Assembly (NCBI GenBank): GCA_963854735.1
Contig: OY978098.1
Location: 1,610,001 to 1,674,000 of the forward strand
From: Marvania coccoides
Taxonomy: Eukaryota > Chlorophyta > Trebouxiophyceae > Chlorellales > Chlorellaceae
Reading direction: 5' to 3'
DNA length: 64,000 nt
The notes beneath the pieces were generated by a model that did not search any database, was not told where the DNA came from, and saw nothing but the letters and a program-made list of their open reading frames with translations. Below are positions 17,813-48,500 of the stretch, in pieces (positions within the stretch are counted from its first letter, which is position 1; every line of letters begins with the position of its first letter). A program made the position numbers and the translations under genes.

Positions 17813-18739
17813 TCAAGAAGAAAGTATATCCACCAGCCGCAGCGTCGCTTTCTGCGCCTCCTCTGCCGCCGCTGTTGCCGCCCCCCGCGGCACCTCTCCC
17901 AGCTCTTCGGCAATGAGCTCGCACCCCGTGGCCACCGCCTCGGCCGCTCCCCGCACCTCCTCCGCCTCCTCCTCCGCCGAGTACGCCGCCGCCGCCAAGT
18001 CATCCGCTGCCGCGCCCAGCTGCCGCGCGTGAAACAGCACGCTCTCCCAACACTCAGCATCGCTGCCGCCGCCCTCTTCGCCTCGCTTTGACTGAGCCAG
18101 CAGCTCCCGCATGGCAGCGCGCACCACGGTGCCTGCGGCGGCAACGGCGTCTCTCGCACCCCTCAGCACCTCACTCCCATTTTCCGCCGCCTCTACCGTC
18201 TCCTCGTCTTCTCCTTCTCCTTCGTCTGCTGCCTCCTCCAGCTCGGCTGCAGCGTCGTCCAGCTGCCGCGCAATCACCGCCAGCGCCCGCCCAACGGCAG
18301 TGCAGTTGTCCAGCGGGGCTTTGGCTGCGGCGTCGCACGCCTCCATGACTTGCCCCGCCAGAGGGGGCAGCGCTGCGGGGTTTGCCGCTGCAGCTGCCGC
18401 GCGCACCAGGGCGACGGCGGCATCCACGACGGCGGCTGCCGCGGCCTGCAGCGCGGCGCGCAGCGTGGGTCCGCCGTGCCCTGCTGCGCTGGCCAGCAGC
18501 ATGCACAGCGTGGTCCCAGCGTCACGCAGCCCCGCCAGCAGCGCGGTCGCCGCGTCGGGCGGCGGGGCCTGCGGCTGGCTGAACATGAACCCCACTTTGG
18601 CGGCCTCGGATTTAAGGACGGCAGCCGCTGCGGCAACTTGGTCTGCCGGCGGTGGCGGGGCAGAAGTGTCGGGGGCGCAGCGCACGATGTCTAGGGCGGT
18701 GAGCAGCGCACTGCACGTGGCTTCTGCTGCTTCCTTCAT
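17813..18739 (-). CDS. CCNDBP1: Cyclin-D1-binding protein 1 / GCIP-like protein (second cistron)
   Basis: Single exon, 308 aa from ATG 18739. The N-terminal half aligns by eye with the GCIP family: SEAAKVGFMFSQP, then a helical bundle and a CDAAAKAPLDNCTAVGRAL segment. The rest is Ala-rich helix with an acidic stretch (EEAADEGEGEDEE). The animal protein binds cyclin D and helix-loop-helix factors; the role in algae is unknown. Its ATG overlaps the stop codon of the upstream CHCH gene (ATGA at 18739-18736). No separate promoter space exists, so it is probably translated from a shared transcript. The frame is open 20 codons further upstream but without another ATG. Confidence 0.8.
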   Translation of the reverse strand: MKEAAEATCSALLTALDIVRCAPDTSAPPPPADQVAAAAAVLKSEAAKVGFMFSQPQAPPPDAATALLAGLRDAGTTLCMLLASAAGHGGPTLRAALQAAAAAVVDAAVALVRAAAAAANPAALPPLAGQVMEACDAAAKAPLDNCTAVGRALAVIARQLDDAAAELEEAADEGEGEDEETVEAAENGSEVLRGARDAVAAAGTVVRAAMRELLAQSKRGEEGGGSDAECWESVLFHARQLGAAADDLAAAAYSAEEEAEEVRGAAEAVATGCELIAEELGEVPRGAATAAAEEAQKATLRLVDILSS

Positions 18740-18996
18740 TGCTTTGTCTTGGGGCCCTTGCTGCACGCCAGCTGGAACGCCTGCACTTCCGCCAAGCACT
18801 TTTTTTGGTCGCCCTTGTTCTCCTCAAGGCACTTTTTCAAAGCCTCCACGTCGCACGGAGACAGGTTCTTAGCGGCCTGCGTGGTATGTGCGCGCGAAAA
18901 GAAGATGGAATTTTACTTATAAAACATTTTGGCACAGGCAATTTGCAAAATAAAAAATAAAATATGAGGTGCACTATTCCTCACCTGCTCGTCCAT
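18736..18996 (-). CDS. 50-aa CHCH-like twin-cysteine protein (first cistron)
   Basis: Two exons: 18996-18985 (only four codons, MDEQ, then GTGAGG donor) and 18876-18736. Together they encode 50 aa with four cysteines in helices (CDVEALKKC, ten residues, then CLAEVQAFQLAC), the layout of coiled-coil-helix-coiled-coil-helix proteins of the mitochondrial intermembrane space. The Cys spacing (CX7C and CX10C) is not the canonical CX9C, so the subfamily is uncertain. The stop codon shares two bases with the start of the CCNDBP1-like ORF. The gene is head-to-head with tubulin cofactor C (278 bp between start codons). Confidence 0.75.
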
Positions 18997-19274
18997 GCCC
19001 TTGCCCAGTTCAAACAAAAATTAATTTCAGTATGCTATATCTCGATTTGCAACCAGCAATCACTCCTCTTGCAACAATTGTTGCCAAAAAATTTTGAAAT
19101 TGTTTTTTCAAGAGCAGTTTTATCGCGTTGCCAAACAAATAAATATTTAATAAATCTGGAGTTGATTGAATCCTTCATTTCATCATCCAACCACTTGCAG
19201 TTCTCAGCTCTTTCTACGATCTTTTCAATAGTCAAACACCAGCATCTCTCTGAACACACACACAAACTATCGCG

Positions 19275-20264
19275 ATGGACGATGCCACTGCCGCCAAGCA
19301 GGCTGCTGTGGTGGAGCGGCTGAAGGCCCGAGAAGCGCAGCGCGTGGCAGAGGCCGCAAGGCGCCAAGAAGAGGCGTCTGCGTCAGGGGCACGCGAGTCT
19401 GCGCCAGCCTTTCTGCAAGAGTTTGGGCAGCGGCGGGCGGCGCTGGATCTCGAGCTGCGCAGCTGCGCCTCTCGCCCCGCCGATGACCTGGCGGCCAGCC
19501 TTTCAGCACTCGACGCCAGCCTCGCTGCCGCTGCATACTACCTGCCTCCCTACGACCTCCGCCAGTCCACCCTTGCGGTAGCAGACCTCAGAGAGCGCTT
19601 GAACGCCGCCGTGCAGGCGCAGCAGCCCCGCAAAAAGTTTTCATTCTCCAAACGGCCAGCGAGCAGCAGCAGTAGTGCACCACCAATAGCAGCAGCGCCA
19701 ACAGGCCCCCCACCACCCCAAGCCCAGCAACAGCAGCAGCACCATCCGTCTTCTGGGCGCACCATCCGGGGTCTACGGGGGCAGCGCATCACGATTTCGA
19801 CCGACGCTGTGGGCGGCAGTGAAGACGTCACGCTGGCTGACCTGGAGGGGTGCAGCGTGCGCCTGGTGGGCCCCTTGGGTGCTCTATTCATCTCTAACCT
19901 GCGGAACTGCACCGTGGAGGCCGGCCCGGTCGGCGGGGCCGCCCATGCGGAGGGGCTCCTTCGGTGCAAAATTTATTTGGCGTCCCGCCAAGTGCGCATC
20001 CACTCCGCCGAGAGCTGCGACTTCTATTTGCGTGTGCGGTCGGGGCCCATCATTGAGCACTCGCAGGGGCTGCGGTTTGCGCCCTACGCCTGCCCCGCTG
20101 CTGCCACGCGGGCGCAGCTGGCGGCGCAGGGGCTGGAGGCGGATGGCGGGGAGTGGGCGGCGGTGCAGGACTTTGGATGGCTGCGCGCCACCGCCTCACC
20201 CCATTGGAGCGTGCTGCCGGAGGGGGAGCGCCAGCAGGCTGGCAGCAGCAGCGACAAAATCTGA
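19275..20264 (+). CDS. TBCC: Tubulin-binding cofactor C
   Basis: Single exon, 329 aa. An N-terminal helical region (residues 1-125) is followed by a Ser/Pro/Gln-rich linker and the beta-helical C-CAP/cofactor C domain (about 155-305). The domain carries the arginine-finger loop SRQVRIHSAESCDFYLRVRS, the Q-x-R-x-H element that stimulates GTP hydrolysis by beta-tubulin in the supercomplex with cofactors D and E. Lengths and domain order match plant and animal TBCC. The start at 19275 is the first ATG. Confidence 0.93.
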   Translation: MDDATAAKQAAVVERLKAREAQRVAEAARRQEEASASGARESAPAFLQEFGQRRAALDLELRSCASRPADDLAASLSALDASLAAAAYYLPPYDLRQSTLAVADLRERLNAAVQAQQPRKKFSFSKRPASSSSSAPPIAAAPTGPPPPQAQQQQQHHPSSGRTIRGLRGQRITISTDAVGGSEDVTLADLEGCSVRLVGPLGALFISNLRNCTVEAGPVGGAAHAEGLLRCKIYLASRQVRIHSAESCDFYLRVRSGPIIEHSQGLRFAPYACPAAATRAQLAAQGLEADGGEWAAVQDFGWLRATASPHWSVLPEGERQQAGSSSDKI

Positions 20265-20372: not shown

Positions 20373-21353
20373 TCATCTTCTTCGACTCAACTCAACTGCG
20401 ATCTGCGCCCCCACCACTGCATTGTTCTTCACCAACCAAATGTTGGCCTCCAGCGACCGCCCGCCCGTCAGCTCCCTGATGCGCTCCAGCAGAAATGGCG
20501 TCACGTCTTTGCCCTTCACGCCCCGCTCCCCCGCTTCCCTCAACGCTGTCTCCACGGCAGCATCTATTTCAGCACCCGCCGCCGCGTGCTGCCGCGGAAT
20601 GGGCACCCCAATCACCATGCCGCTTCCCAGCTGCATACTTACCGCCGCGTGGATGGCCTCCGCCGCCTCCCCCGGCGAGTCGAAACGGCAGGCGGCCTTG
20701 CACCCGCTGTGTGGCGTGAAAAACGCGGGGAACTCGTCAGCACCGTACGCCGCCACGCACACCCCCTGCGTCTCCAGAAATTCCAGCGTGCGAGGGATGT
20801 CCAGCACGCTCTTTGCGCCCGCACATACCACGGCCACCGGCGTTCGCCCCAGCTCAGTGAGGTCAGCAGAGACGTCCATAGAAGACTCGCACCCACGGTG
20901 CACGCCGCCAATGCCCCCTGTCACAAACACCGCGATCCCCGCCCGCGCGGCCAGCAGCATGGTGGCGCTGACCGTGGTGGCCCCGTCTGCACGCTGCGCC
21001 ATCACAGCGGGGAGGTCCCGCCGGGAGATCTTTCGCACTGCTGTGCCGGCGCGGGCGATGCGCTCCAGCTGCGCCGCGGTGAGGCCCACATGGGGGACGC
21101 CCGCGAGGATCGCCACGGTGGCTGGCACTGCGCCGTTGGATCGCACGACCGCCTCGACTTCTTCAGCGGTGCGCAGGTTTTGGGGGTAGGGCATGCCGTG
21201 GCTGATGATGGTCGACTCCAGAGCCACCACGGGGCGGCCAGCGTGCAGCGCGTCGCGCACCTCGGGGCTCAACACGATGTGGTTTGCTGCATCTGCAAAG
21301 TGACCTGCGATGACCGAGATCCGGCCCTGCGCGGCAACTGTGGGTACATTCAT
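20373..21353 (-). CDS. PUMY: Pseudouridine-5'-phosphate glycosidase
   Basis: Single exon, 326 aa, full length for the PsuG family. Signature stretches are ALESTIISHGMPYPQN, GGIGGVHRGCE, SSMDVSADL and CAGAKSVLDIPRTLE; the Lys in the last is probably the Schiff-base lysine (from family knowledge). The enzyme cleaves the C-C glycosidic bond of pseudouridine 5'-phosphate to uracil and ribose 5-phosphate, downstream of a pseudouridine kinase, in RNA nucleoside salvage. In plants it is peroxisomal; no clear PTS1 is seen here (C-terminus SRRR). No kinase fusion is present. It is head-to-head with the RNA cyclase gene, with 147 bp between start codons. Confidence 0.93.
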   Translation of the reverse strand: MNVPTVAAQGRISVIAGHFADAANHIVLSPEVRDALHAGRPVVALESTIISHGMPYPQNLRTAEEVEAVVRSNGAVPATVAILAGVPHVGLTAAQLERIARAGTAVRKISRRDLPAVMAQRADGATTVSATMLLAARAGIAVFVTGGIGGVHRGCESSMDVSADLTELGRTPVAVVCAGAKSVLDIPRTLEFLETQGVCVAAYGADEFPAFFTPHSGCKAACRFDSPGEAAEAIHAAVSMQLGSGMVIGVPIPRQHAAAGAEIDAAVETALREAGERGVKGKDVTPFLLERIRELTGGRSLEANIWLVKNNAVVGAQIAVELSRRR

Positions 21354-42591: not shown

Positions 42592-45500
42592 ATGCAACCG
42601 CAACGGTCGTTCACGCGAGAGCCGTTGGCCATCCGCGACAGCAATTCGCAATTGGCATCCCCCAAGGACACCGAGGTCAGCCTTGGACGCGGCATCGGTG
42701 GCTTCACCAGCGACCTCACACCTCAACAAAATTCCCAACAATTTTATTCACCGGTGAGCAATCCGCAAGGCATGCCGGTGCAGGACGTCTTTGGAGACGA
42801 GGTAAGCCGTGTAAATCTTATACCAAGCCCTCGGCACCGTTTTGCGTTTTGGTCTGGTCCTTCCAATCACCCTTTTCAAACGTTCCTTCTCCACACTGGC
42901 CAAACAGACTCCCCCAGAGAAGAAGGGCGGCCGAGAGCGCGACCTCTTCGACGCCCTGGAAGCCGCAGCCACACCCGCTTCCGAGCGCAAGCTACCCAAC
43001 GCCAGGATCGCAGCAGCAGCTGAAGTTTCCGCTGCTGTCGATCCTGCTGATTTCATGGACGTTGTCACCGCCGCAGCCCCCCCAGGCCCCGATGTGCAGC
43101 TGCACGCGGCGCTGGAGGCTCTGGATACCGTGCAGCACTTTGCTGCTGGCAAGGCGGGCACCGTCGGCGACCCTTCTGCCTCCTCAGAGACCCCCGGCCA
43201 ACGCCTGGCGTACTTTCTCAAGGAGCAGCTAGTGGCGCGCGAGGAGGCGCGGAAGAGGGCTCAAAGCGCCGCGGCCGATGCCCTTCGTGCGCTGGCAGCG
43301 AAAGAGACCGAGCTGGAGACCACCAAGCAGCAGCGGGACGCCTACAGGGACCAGTCGAAAAAGGCTGCCTCCAAGGCGCAGCGCCTGGAGGCGACCGTGG
43401 GGGAGCTGCAGCGCCGGCTGGTGGCAGCGGAGCAGCTGGCGCACGACAGCATCGAGCTGGCGAGGCGGAAGGATGCCGAGGCGGGGGCCGCCCGCCGTCG
43501 CACCGACGCCGAGCTGGAAAGCGCGCAGCGGCGGCTGGCGGAGATGGAAATGCGGCTGCACATGGCGTCGCCGCACCCCGCGGCCTCCCAGCGCGACGTG
43601 TTTGGGAGCCCTGCGGGCCCTCCCAGGCGCCTAAACGGTGAGCGAGACCGAGACGACGCCTCTGTGGCTGACAGCGAGGACCTGGTGTGTGACGAGGCTT
43701 TTGAAGAGGTGCGAGCGATGGCGCGCTGCGCCGCCAAGGGCGTTGCGGTGGTGCAGCACGGCGGCGGCAGTGAGGGCGTGAAGGCAGACCGAGAGAAGCG
43801 GCAGCTTTCTGAGGAGCACCTGCTGCGCTCTGAGATCTCCACCCTGGAGCGAAAGGCAAGACATTTTGTGTAATTTCGACAGATATTTGATCATTGAATA
43901 CCTCAATTTTGGGTGACTGCTCCAATTCCAACCAACTGATTGGTGGCTAGTTTTTCTTGTCGCTGTTGCAGTGTGAGCGTGCTGGTCACATGCTGGTCAA
44001 GGCCAACCACGCCATGCGCGTGCTGCACATGAAGCTGCAGAAGGAGCGGCAGACCGCGGCGGCGCTGCAGGAAGAAAAGTGCCTGCTGCAGTCGCAGCTG
44101 CTGGCGGCGGCAGACCGCCCCGCAGGCCTCGAACCTGAGCATCTCAGCGCGCTGCTGCAGGAGCTGGCACAGGCGCGGGCGCGAGTGGAGACGCTCGCCG
44201 ATGAGCGCTCCTCGCTGGCTGCAAAGTTGACTGCCACCGAGGGCCTGCTGAGCGAGACCGACCGCGCGGCTGCCGAGAGTGCATCGGCGGGAGAAGCGGA
44301 GGCCGCTGCTCGCCTGGAGGAGGCCCGCGTGCGCGAGACCGCGCTGGAGGCGCGCGTGGACGAGCTGGTGGCGCAGCTGTCGGCGGCAGCCGCCGCAGCT
44401 TCGCAGCTGGAGGGCATGGGCGGGGCGCTGCAAGAGGCTCGCGAGCGATGTGGCCAGCTGGCGGCGGAACTCGAAGCGGAGCGCATGACCGCGGCAGAGC
44501 GCGCCTCAGAGCTCTCCCACCTGGGCGAGGTGGCGCAGAGCTTTGCTACGGAGCTGATGCACGTGCGAGAGGAGGCCCAGCATGAACGCAGCGGGCGGGA
44601 GCGCGCAGAGCACGACAACGCGGGGCTCAAGGGCCGCCTGGAGGCTCTGATGGAGGCGGTGGGTAGGCTGGAGCGCAGCGACGGCGTGCTGGAGTCCCTG
44701 GCTGAGGGCCAGGCCGAGCTCCAGGGACGACTGCGGCAGGCTGAGGCGGCAGCGGCTGGAGCAGCTGCGACTGCTGATGCCGCCCGGGTGGACCTCCAGG
44801 CGGAGCGCACGCGCGTGTCCGAGCTGGAGCACACCGCAGAGGTGCTCAAGAGCGAACTGGCTGCGGCGGAGGAGCACAATCACGCGCTGCAGATGGGGGC
44901 AGCTGCTGCAGGCAACCAGCTCGCGGAGCTGGCCGGGAGCCACGACGCGCTGTTGCGAGAGCTGGAGAACGCTGCCGAGGAAGCGGGCATCGCCCGCAGC
45001 GACGCAGCAGCGCTGGCACAGCGCGCCGCCGCCGCCGAAGGCCGTGCCTCCGAAGCAGAGCGCAGGGCGGCGGTGCTGCAGACCTCACTGGAGTCTGCCG
45101 AGGCCCGCGAAGGCGCGCTGTCTGCGGAGCTGCAGGAGCTGGCGTACGCGGCGCAGCAGGCGGCGGCAGAAGCGGAGTCCGCTCGTGCTGCTGCAGATCA
45201 GGAGCGGCGCGAGCGCGACGAGGCGCGGGGACGGGCCGACAGGCTGGACTCCTCGGTGCGAGCCCTCACCGCGGAGTGCGAGGGCCTGCGCCGCGCGGCT
45301 GCCTCCGCAGATGGCAAGAGCCAGACGCTGGTGGACAGTATGTGCGACATGACGGGCCTCATCGACGCGGTGACCGCCCTGCAGGAGCGCACCAGGCTGC
45401 TGCAGGAAGACTGCGACGTGGCCAGCGCGCGTGCTGCGCGTGCTGAGGCTGAGCGCGACGCAGCGGCGCTGCACAGCGTGGCCTCGGATAGGGAGCTGGG

Positions 45501-48500
45501 TCACGCAAAAGAGCGGCTGGCTGCCGTGGCGGCAGCGCACCAGGACCTGCACGGCCGCCACGAAGAGTTGCGTGCCCACCACGCCGTCACCGAGCGCCAG
45601 CTGGCTGCCCTGGAGGAGGCACGGGCTGCGCTGGCGGCGGAACACTCTGCGCTGCAGCAGCGCGAGCTGGAGCTGCGCGCCGAGGTGGCGGCTGCCGCCG
45701 CCGAGGGCCAGCGCCTCCGCGCTGAGGCTGACCGTCTGGCTGCCGCCCTTGGCGATGCCCATGCGCGCTCCAGCACCAGCCAGGCGGAGCTTCAGGAGGC
45801 GCTGGCGCAGAAGGAGTCGTGGCTGGAGCGCGAGCGGGAGCTCCACCGCCGCTCTGAGAAGATGGAGAAGGCGCACGGCGTGCTGGAGGGCAAGCTGGTG
45901 CTGGCCAAGCAACGAGAAGAAAAGTACAAGGTACATTGATATGCCATAAATTGGAGTTTCTGGGTTGATTTTGTTGTCTGTAATTGAGGCATATAGGATA
46001 ATTGAATTGCTGGCTGACTGAGCCTTTTTAAGTTTTTTTTTTGCGCAGGAAGCTGCCCAGCACCTGTCTCAGCTGCAGGCTGACCTGGCGTCCTACCTTC
46101 AGGAGGCAGACGCGCTCAAACGGGACAAGGAGGCCGCAGACGACCGCGCCGCAGAGCTGACCGGGAGGTGCATGGTGCTGCTGGACCAGATCTCCGTCCT
46201 GGAGGAGGGTGTGGAGGAGGAGCGCGAAGAGCGGAAGGCGCTGGCGGCGGAGCTCGCTGCGGTGCAGGCCTGCGCCCAGAGGCTGCAGGGGCAGGTCGAC
46301 GCGCTGTCAACGCTGCCTGCGCAGGTGGCCGCGCTGGAGACTGAGCGCCAGGAGAGCGCGCGGTGGTGCGAGGACCTCACGGATGAGTTGAAGCTGGCTA
46401 CCGAGAAGCTTGAAGGGGTGACTCGAGAGCTGGAAGAGGCTCAGGAGAGGTGTGAGGCGTTGGAGACTCGGTGCGAGGAGCTGGAGGGGCGGGCAGCGGC
46501 CGCCACGGAGCGGGCTGTGGCTGCTGAGACCGCAGCGCAGCACGCTGATGCGGGGCGCATGGAGGCCGCAGCGGCGCTGGCTGTGGCGGAGCAGACCGCG
46601 GCGGTGGCCAATGCCGAGGCCAACGCAGCGCTGCGCGAGGCTTCTGGCGCGCTGGACCGCCTGCGGGAGGCGGAATCTGCAGGTGGGGCCGCGGCAGAGC
46701 GTGCTTCTCGCGCTGAAGCCGAGCTGGAGGCCCTGCGGGCGGATCACGCCACTCTGGAGGCTGCTCTGGCAACCTCCCGGGGTGCCCAAGCGGCGGTTGA
46801 GGCTGCTCTTCAGTACCGCATCGATCAGCTGGAGGGCGGAGCGTCTGAGTCTGCTGGGCAGCAGGCGCAGCTGGAGGAGGCCCGGAGGCGGCAGGTGGAA
46901 GAGCTGCGTTCTGCGGTCCAAGCAGGTTAGCCTTTTGTTTGGAAAGAAAGGGAGAATATATCTCTTTATTGCAACTGGAATGAATTTTAAGTATGATTTT
47001 TTTCGTTTCTTTCTTCTGCACAGGCTCTGCTGCGTGTGCTGCGCTGGCTGACAAGATCGACGTGGCGGTGCGCGGGCAGCGGGAGTCCATGGAGGAGTGC
47101 ACCCACCTGAGCAGCGAAGTGGAGGAACTGGAGGCCGAGTTGAACGCAGCAAGAGCGGCGCTCTCCACCACCACCGACAAGCTGGAAAGGATCACCCAGG
47201 CGCTGGAGGAGGCGCGGTCCGAAGCCGCGGCAGCGGCGGCAGCGCACCGGACGGGAGAAGTCAGGTTGGAAGCCGAGTGCAGGGCACTGCAGCGCCAGGT
47301 GGAGGTCCTGGAGGCTGCTCAGGCGCGCGGCTATGACCGCACCGACACCATGCAGCGCTCCCTAGATGCTGCGCTGCAGGAGCAGGCCACGCTGCGGGGC
47401 CAGCTGGTCGAATCTTCGCGGCAGCTGGAGGCGGCCAGAGTGGAGGCGGAATCCGCCCGTCGAGAGGCAGCGGAGGCTGAGACCCGCGCTGGCGAGTACC
47501 GCAGGGCTGCGGACACTGCGGCTGCAGAGGCTCGGCGGGCTGTGGAGTGTGCGGCGAGTGATTCCCGTGCTGTGGCAGTGGCAAAGGCGGAGGCGGAGCG
47601 CCGTGTTGCCTCCCTGGAGCAGCAGCTGGAGGTATTGGTAAGGCATTTATATGAATTTAATGATATGACAAGGTCTTTCAGCTAGATGCGTTTCTCCTTC
47701 AGTTTTCAATTTTCCGTCAAACCCCCTTCAAAACTGTTGTTCTTCTTGAACAGGAACTACTCAAGGAACATGCAGCTCGCGACGCCAAGGTAGCCAGGGA
47801 GGCGGCGGAGACGGCTAGGGCGGAAGCAAGCGCCGCCCGCGATGCAGCGGATGCAGCGGAACGCCGCCGCCTGGCTGCCGCTGGAGAGTCCAAGCTAGCC
47901 GTGCACGACCTCACCACCCGCATCTCCGCCCAGATGGCGGTCCTCAGCCGCGTGGAGGCCGCAGTGAACGGCAGCATCGATGGCGGCGACGGCGGTGGCA
48001 GCACTCCCGCCCCCTCGAGCGCTGCTCTCTCTCACTCCGTTGCCCAGATGCAGGGCGTGCTGCAAGAGTACGAAAACCTGTCTGGCGGCGTCAACGCCGC
48101 CGTGGACCACCGCCGCGCTGCGCTGCTGCGCAAGCTGAGTTCGGTGCAGTCGGGGGTGGCCCGGCTGGCAGAGGAGCGCGCGGCGCAGGAGGAACGCGCC
48201 GCCACGTGGCAGTCTGAGAAGGCCGCCATGCGGGCGGTGTGCAAGCTGGCTCTGGCTGTCACCATGGACCAAGTTTCAGGGGGCGGCGAGGCGGCGAGGG
48301 TTGCGGCAGATTTGGCCGATGCGGTGGCCGCCAACGCCGCCGCGCTGCGGTCGCTGGGGCTGGAGGCGGCGTGGGGGTCGCTGCGGAGGCTGGCGGGGTC
48401 CAGCGCCATGCGCGCTGCTGGCGCTGAGGAGCTGGCAAAACGGTGCGCTCGGTTGGAGGCTGAGGTGGCCACTGAGCGGCGCAGAGCGGAGGGAGCAGAG

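Follow-up and report, generated by a model that had tools for sequence, protein, structure and literature searches.

A candidate bicistronic nuclear gene pair with a four-nucleotide stop-start overlap in the green alga Marvania coccoides

Architecture of the locus

The window analysed here is a stretch of 64,000 nucleotides from contig OY978098.1 of Marvania coccoides, and all positions below refer to it. The source genome measures 22.46 Mb; besides 13 contigs of 0.9-3.4 Mb it has two of 49 and 100 kb, which are probably organellar. The minus strand of the window carries two adjoining open reading frames, ORF1 and ORF2 (Table 1). ORF1 encodes 50 amino acids in 150 nt of coding sequence, which is distributed over two predicted exons. 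Since the frame of exon 2, read by eye, holds no ATG, an upstream exon is needed for ORF1 to start with AUG. A previous sequence-only reading had given the coordinates of both frames and an ATGA shared by the stop of the first and the start of the second; both are exact on a parse of the minus strand. Neither an Rfam family at its gathering score nor a tRNA was found within the window.

Table 1. Positions of the features of the CHCH/GCIP locus in the window
Feature	Position	Strand	Description
ORF1 exon 1	18996-18985	minus	ATG, encodes MDEQ; predicted splice, based on GT-AG borders and the open frame
ORF1 intron	18984-18877	minus	predicted; 108 nt, 36% GC, GTGAGG...CACGCAG, TATAAG at 18921
ORF1 exon 2	18876-18736	minus	conserved CHCH-type core; TGA at 18738-18736
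ATGA	18739-18736	minus	stop TGA of ORF1 overlaps start ATG of ORF2 (18739-18737)
ORF2	18739-17813	minus	GCIP/CCNDBP1-like protein of 308 aa, intronless
ATG-free run upstream	18997-19177	minus	presumed promoter and 5' leader
A AAA AAG heptamer in ORF1	18805-18799	minus	-1 slip phase leads into ORF2 frame; probably incidental
Possible alternative acceptor	18761/18760	minus	MDEQ would be fused in frame to ORF2, giving 319 aa

Divergent from this unit, on the plus strand at 19275-20264, lies a gene for tubulin-binding cofactor C (PF07986, E=1.4e-28; PF16752, E=1.5e-16). It is 278 bp away from ORF1, and the AT-rich intergenic stretch is common to both units. At 20373-21353 on the minus strand there is an intronless ORF of 326 aa that matches Indigoidine_A (PF04227, E=3.9e-134), presumably the family of pseudouridine-5'-phosphate glycosidases.

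ORF1 encodes a small CHCH-type protein

For ORF1, all 42 scored candidates proved to be homologous at E<=0.01. The 27 relatives with an organism name all come from flowering plants and the other 15 carry no such name; no named algal match was present among the 42. In an alignment of ORF1 with 14 of these relatives, neither PCDVEALKKCLEENKGD nor any of the four cysteines varies, and the cysteine spacing is C-X7-C-X10-C-X10-C throughout. Three further relatives, P0042, P0043 and P0044 (32 aa), visibly differ or are truncated where the core ends. ORF1 scored below the curated Pfam cut-offs of CMC4 (18 vs 28.9 bits), COX6B (15.6 vs 26 bits) and CHCH (14.2 vs 27.2 bits), and each of these profiles matched 15 of the 15 aligned members at E<=1. 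Among solved structures, the single sequence weakly resembled CMC4 (E=0.096) and the ORF1 profile COA6 (E=0.21). The label CHCH, as used in the sequence-only reading, is therefore appropriate in the broad sense defined by the cysteine spacing; membership in one of the three Pfam families, all of which remained under cut-off, is not supported. By analogy with such families, the product is probably a protein of the mitochondrial intermembrane space. ORF1 has one match in its own genome, and a literature search with three fragments of its core found no mention.

Two observations were made on the relatives themselves. For P0006, P0008, P0018, P0019, P0029 and P0031 the longest contigs measure 2.2-3.3 kb, which is long for the mRNA of a 60-aa protein; they may be transcripts or genomic DNA. 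In P0051, a gene model from Camellia sinensis, an ORF1-type CHCH protein is fused with a YL1_C domain protein (54.4 bits). This may reflect a plant gene with a close downstream neighbour, or a wrong gene model.

ORF2 encodes a GCIP/CCNDBP1-like protein

ORF2 matches GCIP_N (PF13324) with E=4.3e-23 and 82.5 bits, far above the curated cut-off of 27.5 bits, and stays under the cut-off of GCIP_C (PF20936; 25.7 vs 36.2 bits). A solved cyclin-D1-binding protein was matched weakly by the single sequence (E=0.087). At the level of sequence profiles, the earlier assignment as CCNDBP1-like was thus borne out through GCIP_N. The 7991 candidates sharing most words with ORF2 were scored, which yielded five relatives, one of them from EukProt; the best is 55% identical over 88%. 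In its own genome ORF2 has one match. Among viral contigs there were 72 pattern matches, none of which could be confirmed as a relative. A literature search on CCNDBP1 and alga found nothing related, and the literature matches listed for bicistronic and alga contained no report of a cyclin-D1-binding protein.

ORF2 aligns from near the first residues of four of the five relatives, the fifth (P0049) being devoid of that stretch. ORF2 therefore begins about where its relatives begin, in line with the proposal that its start coincides with the start of family similarity. As the next in-frame methionine is residue 52, the ATG within the ATGA is the natural start of ORF2. By homology, ORF1 and ORF2 are both genes.

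Evidence for a common transcript

The two conserved reading frames, each with a start and a stop of its own, lie on one strand with no gap between them. The GC content rises from 36% both upstream and in the intron to 57% in exon 2 and 71% in ORF2, and drops to 35% downstream. Hence, unlike the regions upstream and downstream of the unit, the junction of ORF1 and ORF2 contains no AT-rich spacer. In the spliced form, the AUG of ORF1 would be the sole AUG in the 330 nt that precede ORF2. The upstream run of 181 nt contains no ATG, a state that none of 2000 dinucleotide shuffles reached (mean 4.7 ATGs), a contrast that is overstated because the run was picked as the maximal ATG-free one. Spliced ORF1 has no internal ATG either, as do 18% of its synonymous recodings, so this absence is not significant alone. 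The first frame had been described as having few alternative ATGs; there are in fact none inside it, with the same proviso about the recodings.

The locus could also consist of two transcription units, with a promoter in the ORF1 intron or in exon 2 that gives rise to a monocistronic ORF2 mRNA. The sequence-only reading saw no promoter space before ORF2, which was too strong, as the AT-rich intron of 108 nt could hold a promoter. The intron is as AT-rich as the upstream region and contains a TATAAG, and exon 2 has no ATG before 18739, so that the ATG of ORF2 would come first on such a transcript. Yet 15% of 1330 composition-matched windows contain a TATAWR and the TATAAG may therefore be due to chance; moreover, a spacer like those on either side of the unit is lacking. 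We consider a separate ORF2 promoter unlikely. Neither TGTAA nor AATAAA occurs between 18876 and 17700. This says nothing on separate transcripts, because the stretch covers the end of ORF2 and the region beyond.

A different splice would bring ORF2 under the AUG of exon 1. Joining exon 1 to the possible alternative acceptor (Table 1) would place MDEQ in the ORF2 frame and skip the CHCH core. Reading across this junction stays in frame without meeting a stop, and this acceptor scores 1.07 compared to 1.14 for the assigned one, in a noisy matrix by which an out-of-frame AG at 18781 outscores both (4.51). The splice-site matrices were built from unverified ab initio introns and are too noisy to decide; a second attempt was no cleaner. 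What speaks against such a splice is that it would delete the conserved core of ORF1 and that the relatives of ORF2 have a methionine of their own near the same place. We regard it as quite improbable as the source of the ORF2 protein.

Benchmark bicistrons in the same genome

TOM22_SDHAF3 and OST4_FAM32A are the two loci that were tested in vivo in Auxenochlorella, according to a preprint (PMC11291117). The Marvania genome was searched for FAM32A (two matches) and for LYR_2 (three matches); L033 and L034 were assessed from the search output alone. At L030, a two-exon OST4-like ORF of 37 aa is followed, after a gap of 9 nt, by the FAM32A ORF. At L032, on the minus strand, a three-exon TOM22-like ORF of 74 aa precedes an LYR_2 ORF at a distance of 46 nt. 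Complex1_LYR_2 is, as we take it, the family of SDHAF3. The TOM22-like product scored above its Pfam cut-off (32.5 vs 28.7) and the OST4-like product slightly under (22.5 vs 25). The OST4-like ORF has no internal ATG, the TOM22-like ORF has two. On the other hand, no OST4-like ORF was recognised next to the second FAM32A match (L031). Inspection by eye identified neither REX1S next to REX1B nor any CDC26-like ORF next to the two matches to CYTH, and Pet100 had no match in the genome search.

At least two known algal bicistrons are thus kept in this genome, which makes another unit of such form credible. The bicistronic unit proposed in the sequence-only reading is supported by its architecture and by these two benchmarks; the common transcript itself we infer.

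The ATGA overlap

Given the stop codon TGA, an ATGA arises if the last codon ends in A, which is the case in 19% of the synonymous recodings of ORF1. The motif alone is thus not rare. With both strands counted, 244 kb of nuclear sequence contain 1503 ATGA sites; in 15 cases the open frame before the site spans at least 40 codons and the ORF after it at least 200 codons. Within this set, the CHCH/GCIP site has the top upstream coding score (0.24, followed by 0.11 and 0.08, with the other 12 negative) and, with 0.49, the third-highest downstream coding score. At 44485 on the plus strand, an ATGA is flanked by frames of 78 and 484 codons with scores of 0.08 and 0.58; it is probably internal, inside the longer ORF 43957-45939.

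The second residues of the five ORF2 relatives are E, F, S, A and C. As only S can follow an ATGA, the overlap is excluded at the listed start in four of the five. Conservation of the ATGA, suggested as a check in the sequence-only reading, was thus not seen in these four. Judged by these residues, the GCIP family does not keep the overlap as a fixed feature, although the listed starts are predictions and the relatives may not be bicistronic.

Translation of ORF2

The locus is best read as specifying a bicistronic mRNA; from the sequence we infer the splice, the common transcript and the route by which ORF2 is translated. A single nuclear transcription unit would produce one spliced, capped mRNA that carries both ORF1 and ORF2. 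The majority of ribosomes would initiate at the AUG of ORF1. Some would scan past it, and the next AUG they meet would be that of ORF2, which overlaps the stop of ORF1. Termination-reinitiation at the overlap would contribute no more than a minor share. For this reading as a whole, i. e. one nuclear unit with a spliced, capped bicistronic CHCH/GCIP mRNA and translation of ORF2 by leaky scanning, we estimate a probability of roughly 60%.

The translation route is suggested by published work on Auxenochlorella. In vivo, ORF2 output went up when the ORF1 start was weakened and down when it was strengthened (PMC11892635), and these effects favour leaky scanning over reinitiation. TOM22_SDHAF3 and OST4_FAM32A are the loci at which leaky scanning was demonstrated in that alga. 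At the Marvania locus, the start contexts of ORF1 and ORF2 score 0.73 and 1.96 bits, respectively, which is the expected direction. Among 37 ab initio starts from the same genome, however, the ORF1 start ranks at the 73rd percentile and is thus not clearly weak. Folding around the ORF2 start is ordinary (z=0.51).

The same bicistronic mRNA could instead be translated mainly by termination-reinitiation, in which a ribosome ends at the TGA and steps back to the AUG. The geometry matches the ATGA overlap of coupled gene pairs in prokaryotes (PMC6728339), and ORF1 is short, with its 150 nt of coding sequence. If the ATGA were functional in this way, a nuclear gene pair would be translationally coupled like a bacterial operon, and the GCIP-like protein would be made in proportion to a mitochondrial-type protein. 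Reinitiation predicts that weaker initiation at ORF1 lowers ORF2 output, the opposite of what was seen in green algae (PMC11892635), and the second residue is incompatible with an ATGA at the listed start in four of the five ORF2 relatives. On both counts the ATGA taken alone is no argument for termination-reinitiation, and reinitiation as the main route is unlikely.

Finally, a -1 ribosomal frameshift at the A AAA AAG heptamer would yield a CHCH-GCIP fusion protein. The heptamer has the required phase, no stop lies between it and ORF2 in the frame of ORF2, and the codons CAA AAA AAG for QKK are expected at about 4% (product of codon usages). The fold of the 98 nt downstream, however, is less stable than that of shuffled controls (z=+2.4), all 200 of which did at least equally well, and four of the five ORF2 relatives have their own methionine near the same place. 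A search for a fused CHCH-GCIP protein gave three matches among four candidates, none with a GCIP domain. Frameshifting thus appears very improbable.

Comparison with known systems

In plants, the CHCH peptide of CPuORF homology group 8 precedes a Mic1-like ORF, while arthropods and nematodes combine a first ORF of this type with different partners (PMC2075485 and PMC3426882). As in group 8, a small CHCH protein would come first in a probably dicistronic mRNA, with second ORFs that differ by lineage. Assigning ORF1 to group 8 was attractive because of its length, the CHCH character and the dicistronic arrangement. The assignment was rejected on the printed cysteine spacing and intron places. 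Group 8 follows a twin CX9C rule with 11-15 residues between the pairs, and its introns lie 3 aa past the first and 4 aa past the fourth cysteine, algae having the first and/or the second of them (PMC2075485). ORF1, in contrast, has the spacing X7-X10-X10, the single intron predicted for it precedes the first cysteine, and its partner is GCIP-like instead of Mic1-like. In the Marvania genome, a weak Mic1-type match below cut-off lies on C6 and mannosyltransferase matches lie on C10; ORF1 is on C2. Together with group 8, the locus suggests that dicistronic mRNAs have repeatedly come to carry a small CHCH-type protein as their first ORF.

The four-nucleotide stop-start overlap is shared with bacterial and archaeal ATGA pairs that are coupled by termination-reinitiation (PMC6728339). 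Unlike these pairs, the CHCH/GCIP unit belongs to a eukaryotic nucleus and contains an intron, and four of the five ORF2 relatives lack the overlap at their listed start.

The closest likeness is with the nuclear bicistronic genes of green algae, of which 36 loci in Chlamydomonas reinhardtii and 43 in Auxenochlorella protothecoides are described (PMC11892635 and PMC11291117). A short ORF1, a longer ORF2 and a minimal gap are common to them and to the CHCH/GCIP unit. They also have few upstream AUGs, as the CHCH/GCIP unit may, and their ORF1 is often mitochondrial. Unlike these loci, the CHCH/GCIP unit is known here from genomic sequence alone. The words CHCH and cyclin do not occur in the main text of either paper, and the pair was not encountered by name in the passages searched there. 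The word overlap is absent from the published main text (PMC11892635); the preprint mentions an overlap of ORF1 stop and ORF2 start at some A. protothecoides loci (PMC11291117), and overlaps of this kind are therefore not new. By analogy, the CHCH/GCIP pair would belong to the green-algal bicistronic class, with the 4-nt overlap as its distinguishing detail. One compact genome would then hold an overlapping pair as well as two benchmark bicistrons whose gaps are short but positive, and such a spacer-free pair would be a clean natural substrate to separate leaky scanning from reinitiation.
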